From Burkholderiales bacterium (GTDB taxonomy: Bacteria > Pseudomonadota > Gammaproteobacteria > Burkholderiales > Burkholderiaceae_C), in contig JAGWTJ010000003.1 in NCBI GenBank assembly GCA_028869005.1, positions 1-40,683 on the forward strand: DNA of 40,683 nt. The letters are read 5' to 3'. Numbering within the stretch: position 1 is the first letter of the stretch; every line of letters starts with the position of its first letter. Shown one piece after another: positions 10,290-13,514 of this stretch. The notes beneath the pieces were generated by a model. The model was not told where the DNA came from, searched no databases, and was given only the letters and a program-made list of their open reading frames with translations. Position numbers and translations under genes: made by a program.

Positions 10290-10874
10290 TCAGCGCTGCT
10301 CGAACCTGAACACCGCGACGCTGGCGCGCAGGTTGGGCCAGCGGCGCACCACGGTGCCGTCCTGCAGCCCGAAGCTGTCCGTCACCTCGAGTCCGCACTT
10401 GCGCGCCAGCACCTCGAAGTCGGCGTAGGTGCCGACGCGGATGTTGGGCGTGTCGTACCACTCGTAGGGCAACGCCTTGGTCACCGGCATGCGGCCGGCG
10501 GCCACGCGCAGCCGGTTGGGCCAGTGCGCGAAGTTCGGAAAGCTCACGATGCCGATGCGCCCGACGCGTGCCGTCTCGCGCAGCATGCGCTCGGCGTTGC
10601 GCAGGTGCTGCAGCGTCTCGAGCTGCAGCACGACGTCGAAGCTGCGGTCGTCGAACAGCGCCAGCCCTTCCTCGAGGTCGAGCTGGATGACGTCGATGCC
10701 GTGCTGCAGCGCCGCGTGCACGTTGGCGTCGGCCAGCTCGATGCCGTAGCCGCTGCAGCCACGCGTGCGCTGCAGGTACGCCAGCATCTGGCCGTTGCCG
10801 CAGCCCAGGTCGAGCACGCGGCTGCCCGCCGGCACGAGGCGGGCGATGACTTCGAGGGCGTCGCGTTCGTTCAT
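10290..10874 (-). CDS. metW: MetW, methyltransferase-fold partner of MetX
   Basis: This 194-residue protein is the usual MetW length. It has a class I methyltransferase motif I, VLDLGCGNGQMLAYL, and the MetW-typical blocks GIELADANVHAALQ, LQLETLQHLRN, SFPNFAHWPNRL and LPYEWYDTPNIR. MetW is encoded next to metX in many proteobacteria and supports methionine synthesis at the homoserine acylation step; its own chemistry is not settled. The start at 10874 lies 7 bases after the metX stop, so the two are translated as one unit and share the riboswitch-controlled leader. GGGGATGA just upstream may serve as a ribosome site. Confidence 0.95.
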   Translation of the reverse strand: MNERDALEVIARLVPAGSRVLDLGCGNGQMLAYLQRTRGCSGYGIELADANVHAALQHGIDVIQLDLEEGLALFDDRSFDVVLQLETLQHLRNAERMLRETARVGRIGIVSFPNFAHWPNRLRVAAGRMPVTKALPYEWYDTPNIRVGTYADFEVLARKCGLEVTDSFGLQDGTVVRRWPNLRASVAVFRFEQR

Positions 10875-10881
10875 CCGCGGT

Positions 10882-12012
10882 TCATCCCCGGCATTCGACT
10901 GCGATGCGCTCGAAGTACGCGCGCAGCACCGCGTGATAGCGCGCATCGTCGAGCAGGAAGGCGTCGTGGCCGTGCGGCGCGGCGATCTCGGCGTAGCTCA
11001 CGGCGATCCGGTTGTCGACCAGCGCCTTGACGATCTCGCGGCTGCGCGCCGGCGCGAAGCGCCAGTCGGTGGTGAAGCTGACGAGCAGGAACTGCTTGTC
11101 GCGCGCCGGCGCGAAGGCGCGCGTGAGGTCGCCGCCGGCGGCGCGCGCGGGGTCGAAGTAGTCGAGCGCGCGGGTGATCAGTAAGTAGGTGTTGGCGTCG
11201 AAGTACTCGCTGAACTTCTCGCCCTGGTGGCGCAGGTAGCTCTCGATCTGGAACTCGATGGCCTGCGTCGTGTAGCCGAGTTCGGCTGCCTTGAGCTCGC
11301 GGCCGAAGCGCTCGGCCATCGCGTCGTCGGACAGGTAGGTGATGTGGCCGATCATGCGCGCCACGCGCAGGCCGCGCTTGGGCACGACGCCGTGCTCGTA
11401 GAAGTGGCCGCCGTGGAAATCCGGGTCGGTGACGATGGCGCGCCGCGCCACCTCGTTGAAGGCGATGTTCTGCGCCGACAGGTTGGGCGCCGTGGCCACC
11501 GCGACGCAGTGGCGCACGCGAGCGGGATGGCGCAAGGTCCAGGCCAGCGCCTGCATGCCGCCCAGGCTGCCGCCGATCACGGCGGCGAGCTCGCCGATGC
11601 CCAGCCGCTCGACCAGGCGCGCCTGTGCGTCGACCCAGTCCTCCACCGTCACCACCGGGAAGTCGGCGCCCCAGACGCGGCCGCTGTCAGGATTGACGTG
11701 CATCGGCCCGGTGGAGCCGAAGCACGATCCCGGGTTGTTCACGCCGATGACGAAGAAGCGCTCGGTGTCCAGCGCCTTGCCCGGGCCGACCAGGTTGTCC
11801 CACCAGCCCGCCTGGCCCTGCGCGTCGAGCCCGGCGACGTGCGCGCCGGCGTTGAGCGCGTGGCACACGAGCACGGCGTTGCTGCGCGCGGCGTTCAGCG
11901 TGCCGTAGGTCTCGTAGACGAGCTCGTAGTCGGCGAGCGCGCTGCCGCTGGCCAGCGGCAGCGGCTCGGCGAAATGCGCGCGTTGCGGTGTGACGGGTCC
12001 GATCGAAGCCAT
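10882..12012 (-). CDS. metX: Homoserine O-acyltransferase MetX
   Basis: A 376-residue alpha/beta-hydrolase-fold enzyme of the MetX family. It transfers an acyl group from acyl-CoA to homoserine, the first committed step of methionine synthesis. The nucleophile is S149 (GGSLGGMQ), the oxyanion block is [12 protein letters not shown], and the catalytic histidine is H349 (HGHDAFLLD). Family work shows that many proteobacterial MetX proteins use succinyl-CoA rather than acetyl-CoA, so I leave the acyl donor open. It is followed by metW. The ATG at 12012 sits 6 bases after a U-tract of a terminator-like hairpin, and the only Shine-Dalgarno-like sequence (GGGG, 12023-12026) lies within that hairpin's 3' arm. 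Expression is therefore very probably controlled by the leader described separately. Confidence 0.95.
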
Positions 12013-12018
12013 GAACGC

Positions 12019-12051
12019 AAAACCCCGGCGCCGCTTGCACGGCCACCGGGG
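12019..12051 (-). terminator. Attenuator hairpin in the metX leader
   Basis: Read on the minus strand, CCCCGG (12046-12051) pairs with CCGGGG (12023-12028). An inner stem with a bulge continues toward a TGCAAG-type loop, and UUUU follows at 12019-12022, only six bases before the metX ATG. This is an intrinsic-terminator shape placed where it could stop transcription or hide the ribosome site. The sequence AAGCCGC just upstream (12053-12059) is complementary to GCGGC in the 3' arm (around 12030-12034), so an anti-terminator fold is possible. Confidence 0.7.
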
Positions 12052-12053
12052 GG

Positions 12054-12110
12054 CGGCTTCGTTTTAGCGGTATTTGTAGAGCGCCCGCAAGCCGGAGCAA
12101 ATCGGCGCTG
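12054..12110 (-). ncRNA. SAM-II (S-adenosylmethionine) riboswitch aptamer controlling metX-metW
   Basis: Read on the minus strand, the leader shows the SAM-II order of conserved blocks. P1 is AGCGCC (12104-12109) with GGCGCU (12080-12085); GAUUU follows directly in the loop (12099-12103); UUGC is in the loop (12087-12090); AAAU is in the A-rich linker (12072-12075); and GCUAAAA follows (12062-12068). UUGC can pair with the GCUAA segment as in the known H-type pseudoknot, and loop CGGCUU (12089-12094) is also complementary to AAGCCG (12054-12059). This matches the metX-leader aptamer described mainly in alphaproteobacteria. A terminator hairpin follows immediately. A likely -10 (TATACT, 12120-12125) gives a leader of about 100 bases. 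SAM binding is expected to shut metXW off. The exact P2 register needs a covariance-model alignment. Confidence 0.87.
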
Positions 12111-12119
12111 TCAGGGGGC

Positions 12120-12125
12120 AGTATA
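12120..12125 (-). promoter_or_regulatory. -10 box of the metX promoter
   Basis: TATACT on the minus strand, close to the consensus TATAAT, lies about ten bases upstream of the SAM-II P1 stem, as expected if transcription begins near 12113. No good -35 is seen at 17-base spacing. Confidence 0.55.
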
Positions 12126-12191
12126 GCGGCCGGTCATGCCGGCGCATCTGGCGACGCATCGGCCGCCGCGCTCGTGCTGCGCTCGCTGCCG

Positions 12192-13514
12192 CTAGGACAA
12201 CGCGAGCGCGTCGGCCCAGGTGTTCTCGGCCCAGGCGAGCGCGATGCGGCCTTCCACCTGCCCGGCCGCTGCCGATACTCCGCCCGAGCCGGGCACGGTC
12301 TTGAAGGTCTTCTCGGCGCTGTCGTACTGGTGCACCGAGGCCACGTGCATGGCGTCGCGCGCGGTGACGAAGCTGTAGCAGGTGTTCATCACCACCGGCG
12401 TTGGATTGACGGCGCCGCCGCCCAGTTGCGCGACGATCGCCGCCGCCGCCACCTTGGCGTGCTGATTGGCCATGTGGCCCGACTTGGGCATCAGCGGCGC
12501 CGAGAAGGTGGCGTCGCCGAGCACGTGGATGCCGGGGGCGGCCGCCGCCTCCATGGTCAGCCAGTTCATGCCGACCCAGCGGTTGTTGACGTTGACGATG
12601 CCGGCGCTGCGCGCGATGTCGCCGGCGCGCTGCGGCGGAACCACGTTGAGCACGTCGGCCTTCACGTCCTCGAACTCGAGCTTGGCGAGCAGGGCGCCGG
12701 CGCGGCCGCTCACCTCCTTCAACTCGGCGTTCGGACGGTACTCGAGCACTCCGGCGTAGTGCTCCTTGAACGCCTTCTCGAACAGCGCCTTCTTGCTCTG
12801 CACTTCGGGGTTGGCATCGAGCACCAGCACCTTGCTCTTGGGCTTGGCCTGCTTGAGATAGGCGGCCACGACGCAGGCGCGCTCGTAGGGGCCGGGCGGG
12901 CAGCGGTAGGGTGACTTGGGGATCGACAGCGCGAACACGCCGCCGTCGGGCATCGCCTCGAGTTGCCGGCGCAGCGCCAGCGTCTGCGCGCCGGCCTTCC
13001 AGCCGTGCACGACGGCGCCGCTTTGCACCGCCGCTTCGAGGCCGCCGACCTCGCCCCACATGAAGTCGATGCCGGGCGCGAGCACGAGGCGGTCGTAGCC
13101 GAATTCGGCGCCGCCGGCCAGGCGCACCTTCTTCGCCGCGGCATCGACCGCGACGACCTCGCCCTGCACGATCTTCACACCGGCGGCGCGCAGGCCGTCG
13201 TAGCCGCGCGTCACGTCGTCGATCTGCCTGAAGCCGCCGATCACGAGGTTGGAGATCGGGCACGAGACGAAGCTCGGGTTGCGCTCGATCAGCGTGACGT
13301 CGACGTTGCCGCCCCACAGGCGCAGGTAGCGCGCCGCAGTGCTGCCGCCGAAGCCGCCGCCGACGACGACGACGCGACCGATCGAGGGGCCCGACGGGCC
13401 GCTCGCACAGCCGGTGAGCGAGAGCGCGGCGAGGCTGCCGAAGGCGGCGCCGCCGACGAGCAGGCGGCGGCGCGACAGGGCGGTGGCGTTCTGGAAAGTG
13501 GTGACAGGCTTCAT
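12192..13514 (-). CDS. fccB: Flavocytochrome c sulfide dehydrogenase, flavoprotein subunit
   Basis: A 440-residue flavoprotein with a twin-arginine export signal (LSRRRLLVGGAAFGSL) followed by LTGCASG, so it is exported folded and may also be lipid-anchored. The FAD fold begins at VVVVGGGFGGSTAARYL. The family's redox cysteines are represented by SCPISNLVIGG in the N-terminal half and NTCYSFV in the C-terminal half. YRCPPGPYERA and HVLGDATFSAPLMPKSGHMAN are typical of the FCSD flavoprotein. The enzyme oxidises sulfide to sulfur or polysulfide in the periplasm and passes electrons to the cytochrome subunit encoded directly upstream, 10 bases away. SoxF is a close relative, but no sox genes are in view, so I use fccB. 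The stop at 12192 leaves a 66-base gap to the metX promoter. Confidence 0.9.
   Translation of the reverse strand: MKPVTTFQNATALSRRRLLVGGAAFGSLAALSLTGCASGPSGPSIGRVVVVGGGFGGSTAARYLRLWGGNVDVTLIERNPSFVSCPISNLVIGGFRQIDDVTRGYDGLRAAGVKIVQGEVVAVDAAAKKVRLAGGAEFGYDRLVLAPGIDFMWGEVGGLEAAVQSGAVVHGWKAGAQTLALRRQLEAMPDGGVFALSIPKSPYRCPPGPYERACVVAAYLKQAKPKSKVLVLDANPEVQSKKALFEKAFKEHYAGVLEYRPNAELKEVSGRAGALLAKLEFEDVKADVLNVVPPQRAGDIARSAGIVNVNNRWVGMNWLTMEAAAAPGIHVLGDATFSAPLMPKSGHMANQHAKVAAAAIVAQLGGGAVNPTPVVMNTCYSFVTARDAMHVASVHQYDSAEKTFKTVPGSGGVSAAAGQVEGRIALAWAENTWADALALS

Follow-up and report, generated by a model that had tools for sequence, protein, structure and literature searches.

The metX leader in this contig raises the question of whether the sequence preceding the gene is a SAM-II riboswitch and by what means it would control expression. 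The window, which is the whole stretch of 40,683 nucleotides analysed here, belongs to a Burkholderiales bacterium. The original prediction placed a SAM-II riboswitch with an overlapping terminator directly before metX on the minus strand. Judged from its sequence, the metX leader is with high probability a genuine SAM-II riboswitch. The reading that we favour, with a probability of roughly 0.8, is that the leader combines a SAM-II aptamer with a transcription-terminating expression platform.

Identity of the metX leader element

A permissive scan of the 221-base stretch 11980–12200 against 4227 Rfam families identified SAM-II (RF00521, SAM_alpha) at positions 12118–12041 of the minus strand, with a score of 31.8 bits, an E-value of 8.8e-6, and coverage of model positions 1–79 of 79. 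The runner-up families had E-values of 1.2 or worse, which is the chance level. The covariance-model match is therefore significant, but it does not reach the gathering score of RF00521, which is 36 bits. The default Rfam scan of the window at the gathering score returned no match, because 31.8 bits falls below the curated threshold. We regard this threshold as a conservative cut rather than a defining feature of the class, since the E-value is significant and 71 of the 110 genomes of the family with a match are also sub-threshold; the cut hides many SAM-II copies of Burkholderiales. In the whole 3.66-Mb genome, the match in the metX leader was the only significant one (E 3.4e-5), and a second listed match (C322, E 2.1) was discarded as chance. 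The folding energy of the whole leader was uninformative (z −0.33 relative to shuffles).

The element and the genes that follow it are arranged as follows, all on the minus strand:

12120–12125 (−): TATACT, candidate −10 box, recognised by eye
12104–12109 (−): AGCGCC, SAM-II P1 5' strand, from the RF00521 alignment and P1 pair types in relatives
12099–12103 (−): GAUUU, predicted third strand of the SAM-binding triplex, from the RF00521 alignment and the contacts in the homologous SAM-V structure
12094–12098 (−): GCUCC, P2 5' strand of the outer pseudoknot helix, by register (loop positions −4 to −8)
12087–12090 (−): UUGC, inner P2 5' strand including the U predicted to face the SAM sulfonium, from the RF00521 alignment, role from the SAM-V paper
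12080–12085 (−): GGCGCU, SAM-II P1 3' strand, from the RF00521 alignment
12072–12075 (−): AAAT block, from sequence
12063–12068 (−): GCUAAA, inner P2 3' strand and predicted SAM pocket, from the RF00521 alignment, role from the SAM-V paper; the block GCTAAAA spans 12068–12062
12056–12060 (−): GAAGC, P2 3' strand, four of five pairs with 12098–12094 and one C·A mismatch, by register and sequence
12039–12062 (−): predicted antiterminator hairpin ACG..GCCGCC/GGUGGC CGU, −10.7 kcal/mol by folding, excluding both P2 and the terminator
12023–12051 (−): predicted intrinsic terminator hairpin with a bulged stem, −22.6 kcal/mol, from the hairpin finder and terminators in relatives
12019–12022 (−): short U tract (UUUU GCGUUC AUG), from sequence
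10882–12012 (−): metX, homoserine O-succinyltransferase type (NF047916, 635 bits, above cut-off)
10290–10946 (−): metW, overlapping the end of metX (TIGR02081, 232 bits, above cut-off)

Every SAM-II block named in the original prediction is present in the order and place given there, and the metX assignment of the downstream gene is confirmed. The P1 stem forms six of six pairs, the pocket blocks GAUUU, UUGC and GCUAAA are all present, and the P2 pseudoknot is complete in its inner part and has four of five pairs in its outer part. The genes downstream, metX and metW, belong to methionine synthesis. The hairpin (12051–12023) and TTTT (12022–12019) also lie as proposed, with six bases separating the T tract from the metX start codon ATG at 12012–12010. 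The element shares with RF00521 the P1 stem, the GAUUU third strand, the UUGC/GCUAAA inner P2, the register of outer P2, the methionine-gene context, and a terminator following the aptamer. It differs in its sub-threshold score, in a P1 of near-fixed sequence in the rows examined, and in one mismatch in outer P2. If TATACT is a −10 box, transcription would start just before P1. Boxes similar to it, recognised by eye, precede the element in four relatives (L051, L084, L089 and L109); a strict pattern scan of 11950–12250 found no sigma-70 promoter.

The SAM pocket and pairing in relatives

The GAUUU block (12103–12099) presumably supplies U10, U11 and U12 in SAM-II numbering, and GCUAAA (12068–12063) is taken to hold U44, A45, A46 and A47. 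All of the predicted SAM-pocket bases are kept in the window leader. According to passages of the SAM-V structure paper (PMC6061858), SAM-II binds SAM almost identically to SAM-V, and the pocket bases, mapped by SAM-II numbering, are the U residues of the third strand, the UU of UUGC, and the UAAA of GCUAAA. SAM-V has the same pocket chemistry and differs from SAM-II in acting on translation and in having only a short outer P2. The exact order GATTT, TTGC, GCTAA occurs in 153 of the 160 loci fetched by their RF00521 match, and a near-identical pattern is found in 66 of the 80 leaders anchored on metX.

The pairing was analysed in an alignment of 28 rows from Burkholderiales (A1), in which metX rows were filtered for at least five of six P1 pairs. 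The paired fraction of P1 cells (97.6%) is partly a product of this filter, whereas the variety of P1 pair types is not; outer P2 cells were paired in 61.9%. Two of the three outer P2 pairs had two-sided changes. The covariation score of 0.161, compared to 0.093 in shuffles, was reached by none of 500 shuffles, and the same holds for the paired cells and for the double-changed cells. Sliding the partner strand reduced the pairing from 90% to 39–53%. Two measures were not significant, the count of pairs with changes in both partners (42/500 shuffles) and that of further pair types (59/500). Inner P2 (TTGC with GCTAA) is invariant in A1, but these bases are fixed by the pattern used to select the rows. 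The invariance of GATTT, TTGC and GCTAA in the alignment was dropped as evidence for the same reason.

In a pattern-selected set of 225 unique elements, 74% form the outer P2 pair −5:+4, compared to about 59% in 20 shuffles; this pair is C-G in 104, T-A in 34 and T-G in 20 of them. The register containing this covarying pair consists of −4:+3, −5:+4 and −6:+5. The original prediction had P2-side AAGCCG complementary to the aptamer loop. It is indeed complementary to CGGCUU, but the covarying register joins GCUCC (12098–12094) to GAAGC (12060–12056). The pairing CGGCUU:AAGCCG is possible on paper; as a P2 register it is disfavoured because it consumes the UU of UUGC, which the SAM pocket needs. 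We conclude that P1 and outer P2 pairing covary in relatives of the metX leader.

Predicted terminator and antiterminator

Using a finder of hairpins followed by T-runs, with one dinucleotide shuffle per element, we detected terminators of −15 kcal/mol or lower after 187 of the 225 related elements and in 23 of 225 shuffled sequences. At −18 kcal/mol or lower, the counts were 145 and 7, respectively. A strict pattern scan of 11950–12250 found no stem that fits its rules and called no terminator; the stem of the window's hairpin is bulged and its U tract only four bases long.

The mutually exclusive fold envisaged in the original prediction exists, but the P2 3' strand competes with the terminator 5' arm and not with the 3' arm. 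The predicted antiterminator pairing joins GCCGCC (12057–12052) with GGUGGC (12047–12042) and is extended by ACG/CGU. Among the 197 leaders with a terminator of −12 or lower, 192 were used for a swap test. The duplex between the P2 3' strand and the terminator 5' arm of the same leader has a mean of −9.33 kcal/mol, compared to −8.06 (s.d. 0.17) with swapped arms, and none of 200 permutations were as low. After thinning to dissimilar leaders, permutations at least as low numbered 0/500 for 91 leaders and 5/500 for 33 leaders. With 17 very different leaders the test was not significant (164/500), and relatedness may therefore inflate its result. The own-arm signal holds among moderately related leaders and is not significant among very distant ones. 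Natural double changes in the antiterminator occur in L020 (GGATGCC:GGTATCC) and L057 (GAACGC:GCGTTC).

The P1 3' strand, GCGGGCGC, was considered as another antiterminator. Across leaders it pairs with the terminator 5' arm at a mean of −11.75, compared to −10.11 with shuffled arms, and does better in 140 of 197. In the window it was no better than shuffles (−12.5 vs −13.0), and the P2 3' strand is preferred for this reason.

The predicted antiterminator pairing is worth −10.4 to −11.4 while the RNA extends 22–28 nt past the core, and −4.2 if the P2 strand is held. The best fold depends on where the transcript starts: from 12125 it lacks the terminator (−41.3), and from 12113 it contains it (−37.8). 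The predicted terminator and antiterminator are both present in the window and have counterparts in most relatives. When P1 is included, the terminator state of the window (−33.6) lies below the antiterminator state (−18.4), and the terminator is favoured in either state once its 3' arm is out. A switch in the window would have to be kinetic, since at equilibrium the terminator has the better energy in both cases, and this requirement is the weakest part of the case.

Based on these structures, a mechanism can be proposed. At low SAM, the P2 3' strand GAAGCCGCC would pair with GGUGGC..CGU as the RNA emerges. This antiterminator pairing would delay or prevent the terminator, so that metX and metW are transcribed. 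When SAM is bound, the pseudoknot would hold the P2 3' strand, the terminator could fold, and transcription would stop before metX. The metX leader is most likely a transcriptional OFF switch, which would shut off methionine synthesis at high SAM.

A less likely explanation, which nevertheless carries the most weight among the alternatives, is that the SAM-II aptamer acts on translation, with the hairpin or the aptamer hiding the metX ribosome-binding site and with termination as a minor effect. The hairpin and T tract stop six bases from the AUG, and passages of PMC2258182 class a terminator that lies within 10 nt of the start as a dual-control design. As judged by eye, the only G-rich run near the AUG lies in the 3' arm of the hairpin, and the state with P1 and the hairpin is favoured both with and without masking of the aptamer strands. 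However, a hairpin with a T-run follows the large majority of the related elements, as counted above, and lies at varying distances from the start, with GGAG placed after the T-run in several relatives (for example L065 and L067; by eye). The window aptamer also has no Shine-Dalgarno sequence adjoining the start. In the terminating switch that we prefer, the hairpin may block translation as well, since it ends six bases before the AUG and holds the only candidate Shine-Dalgarno sequence, GGGG (by eye).

Distribution in Burkholderiales and a decayed copy

Matches to RF00521 with E-values up to 0.01 were found in 110 of 150 genomes of the family, 39 of which exceeded the gathering score, and in none of 14 control genomes. 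At the level of the order, 142 of 300 genomes had matches, 51 of them over the gathering score. The suggestion that a beta-proteobacterial SAM-II would be unusual is not supported by these counts, and SAM-II outside the alpha group is already mentioned in the literature.

As an anchor independent of RNA models, we used the best 80 of 573 MetX-encoding loci in named genomes, which include Rubrivivax, Roseateles, Ideonella, Aquabacterium, Rhizobacter, Comamonas and many other Burkholderiales. An order-specific covariance model built from 28 Burkholderiales elements (R1) matched 74 of the 80 metX leaders, including a decayed copy (L033) and a truncated one (L104). At least four of its 28 training rows (the window, L039, L052 and L106) are among these 80 loci, and others share genomes with them. 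R1 found no match in the remaining six metX leaders (L047, L048, L055, L064, L070 and L083). In a phylum sample, R1 matched 55 of 299 genomes, comprising 8 from the family (its own included), 9 from the order, 7 from the class and 31 from other classes. The matches in other classes suggest that the metX-leader form is tied to SAM-II-like elements elsewhere.

The decayed copy comes from SZAS-56, a genome of the same genus (L033, identical to L243; also G094). Its metX leader keeps P1, GATTTG and CTTGC, but GCCGACG replaces GCTAAAA and the T tract of the terminator is interrupted (TTTCGGG). We rejected the idea that this sister genome simply lacks the element. The degradation of both the core and the T tract fits an aptamer and a terminator that work together. 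The loss of GCTAAA in so close a relative invites the explanation that the element of the window has itself decayed, resembling SAM-II while no longer switching in this species, and the outer P2 mismatch, the bulged terminator and the sub-threshold score of the window could be read in the same way. We consider this improbable. The pocket bases and P1 of the window are intact, and the window scores 71.0 bits with R1, 15th of 75 matches and itself one of the 28 training rows, compared to 30.9 bits for the SZAS-56 copy. Furthermore, an equivalent element is retained in the relative L034, where the antiterminator is compensated (GCCATC:GGTGGC).

Structural variants were observed among the relatives. 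Six leaders (L115, L120, L141, L165, L211 and L239) each contain two SAM-II-like patterns in tandem, about 100–160 nt apart, and L120 has a third about 800 nt further on; some of these patterns may be chance matches. An apparent extra hairpin between the P1 3' strand and AAAT is visible by eye in L246, L247, L249, L250, L253 and L049. In L084, L089 and L109, an insert of approximately 33–41 nt separates GATTTG from the P2 5' strand, and the remaining SAM-II is intact.

Relation to known elements

The metX-leader SAM-II is ordinary in kind, a further case of a known arrangement. SAM-II with terminators in beta-proteobacteria is already in print (PMC2258182), and according to passages of Corbino 2005, Bordetella bronchiseptica is among the SAM-II sequences and many of these have terminators. 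SAM-II outside the alpha group is mentioned in Barrick and Breaker 2007 and Meyer 2009, and most SAM-II riboswitches are described as transcriptional in a passage of Huang and Lilley 2018. A close counterpart studied in vivo is the metZ SAM-II of Sinorhizobium meliloti (PMC9373788), in which the aptamer is likewise followed by a predicted rho-independent terminator and a short leader RNA rises at high SAM; it differs in being alpha-proteobacterial and in preceding another gene.

A scan of about 200 proteobacterial genomes (PMC4239095) reported SAM_alpha only in Rhizobiales and Rhodobacterales. The same source describes a novel metXZ element, a pseudoknot with a terminator, in 35 beta-proteobacterial genomes, preceding metXW in 30 of them. 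Its sections on this element name no ligand and treat SAM_alpha as separate. Like the metX-leader element, the metXZ element has metXW as its gene context, a pseudoknot and a downstream terminator. The Comamonadaceae, one of its lineages, are represented here by two Comamonas leaders and one Simplicispira leader that carry the SAM-II element. Because the genes, the lineages and the described architecture agree, compared by description, we infer that the metXZ element is probably SAM-II. The assignment would supply a ligand and a mechanism for the metXZ element, for which those sections name no ligand. The treatment of the beta-proteobacterial metX element in PMC4239095 as a novel RNA distinct from SAM_alpha could instead mean that the leader belongs to another class, binds a different ligand or a protein, and merely resembles SAM-II, which is very improbable given that RF00521 exceeds its threshold in 39 of the 150 family genomes, that the beta-only model R1 matches in other classes, and that the pocket bases occur in nearly all RF00521-matched loci (153/160).

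A related element preceding metK

The same genome contains a weak second match to R1 at C207:3141–3197 (−), with 25.7 bits and an E-value of 3.9e-4, which lies in the leader of the SAM synthetase gene:

C207:3140–3258 (−): SAM-II-like pseudoknot that carries GAGTTA, upstream of metK (loci L264, L266 and L335; relatives in L266–L295)
L264:258–1434 (−): SAM synthetase gene metK, with Pfam S-AdoMet_synt N, M and C domains

From 40 genomes of the same family we fetched 30 metK loci, the leaders of which were readable by script in 28 cases. All 28 share P1 of the form RTCGCY/RGCGAY, GAGTTA, TTGC, a variable stretch, and then GCTAAAGCG. The loop before TTGC ends mostly in GAACWAC or GRNCAAC. The metK form has GAGUUA where the metX form has GAUUUG, consists of 5' and 3' halves in which UUGC and GCUAA lie as much as 77 nt apart, and forms its outer P2 as GAAC:GUUC or GAC:GUC. 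Its predicted pocket departs from that of SAM-II at a single base of the third strand, where G replaces U10 (SAM-II numbering). A model built from the 28 leaders (R2) matches all 30 metK loci, 28 of which are its training rows. No Rfam family matched the element in L264 at E-values up to 0.5, and seven metK loci searched at E-values up to 1 gave only one unrelated weak match. A few metK-type relatives, such as L196 preceding metK, score weakly as RF00521.

Pairing was evaluated in 56 unique metK elements, each required to have at least five of six P1 pairs, by a shuffle comparison that ignores kinship. The pairs lie in the register of SAM-II and covary. The outer P2 pair −6:+5 is formed in all 56 (A-T 29, G-C 23, G-T 4), compared to a mean of 44.2 and a maximum of 50 in 1000 shuffles. 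The next pair is formed in 46 of 56 (shuffles: mean 28.6, highest 37), and the third, in 30 of 56, is no better than shuffles. P1 pairs 5 and 6 occur as four and three Watson-Crick types, respectively.

The metK leaders probably act by other means than the metX leader. In 50 elements with metK downstream, a hairpin of −12 or lower precedes TTTT in only three, as counted by a finder simpler than that used for metX. A Shine-Dalgarno-like GGAG, AGGA, GAGG or GGGG is present in all 50. Pairing that exceeds shuffles joins the P2 3' strand to a downstream segment in 49 elements and the Shine-Dalgarno region to upstream sequence in 42. This points to a translational platform that masks the Shine-Dalgarno sequence. 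R2 matches with E-values up to 0.001 were found in 103 of 200 genomes of the order, some of them not before metK, and in 24 of 299 genomes of the phylum, 18 of which belong to the order or family; in the order-level count, lower scores mix in ordinary SAM-II.

According to a passage of PMC4239095, no known methionine regulator controls metK in beta-proteobacteria, and efforts to identify one were unsuccessful. A footnote in PMC8814607 states that the 5'UTRs of metK, metX and metZ of Burkholderia thailandensis were suspected to be regulatory and cites confirmation as unpublished data. Among the open-licence literature matches listed, we recognised no description of a SAM-II-type element at metK in beta-proteobacteria. 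We consider it likely that Burkholderiales control both ends of SAM synthesis by two sister SAM-II-type switches, the known metX form acting on transcription and an uncatalogued metK form, a distinct SAM-II subclass, acting on translation. Because one triplex base is changed, the metK form may have an altered ligand preference; a SAM-I variant at metK has been described as binding spermidine, a reminder that the ligand of a variant can differ. The metK element addresses the gap stated in PMC4239095, the missing metK regulator. Related aptamers with seemingly different levels of control in one genome offer a clean system for the evolution of expression platforms. The interest of the locus lies in this metK relative and in the probable assignment of the orphan metXZ element.

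In L303, L304 and L316, metK-type elements precede a MATE-type transporter gene and not metK; the assignment is based on Pfam MatE for L303 and on the likeness of the protein starts for the other two. The genomes G303 and G176 (L303 and L304) have an RF00521 match about 70 nt from the metK-type element. The genome of the window also contains two matches to the SAH riboswitch (RF01057) over the gathering score, at C97:802–890 (−) and C100:11575–11658 (+).
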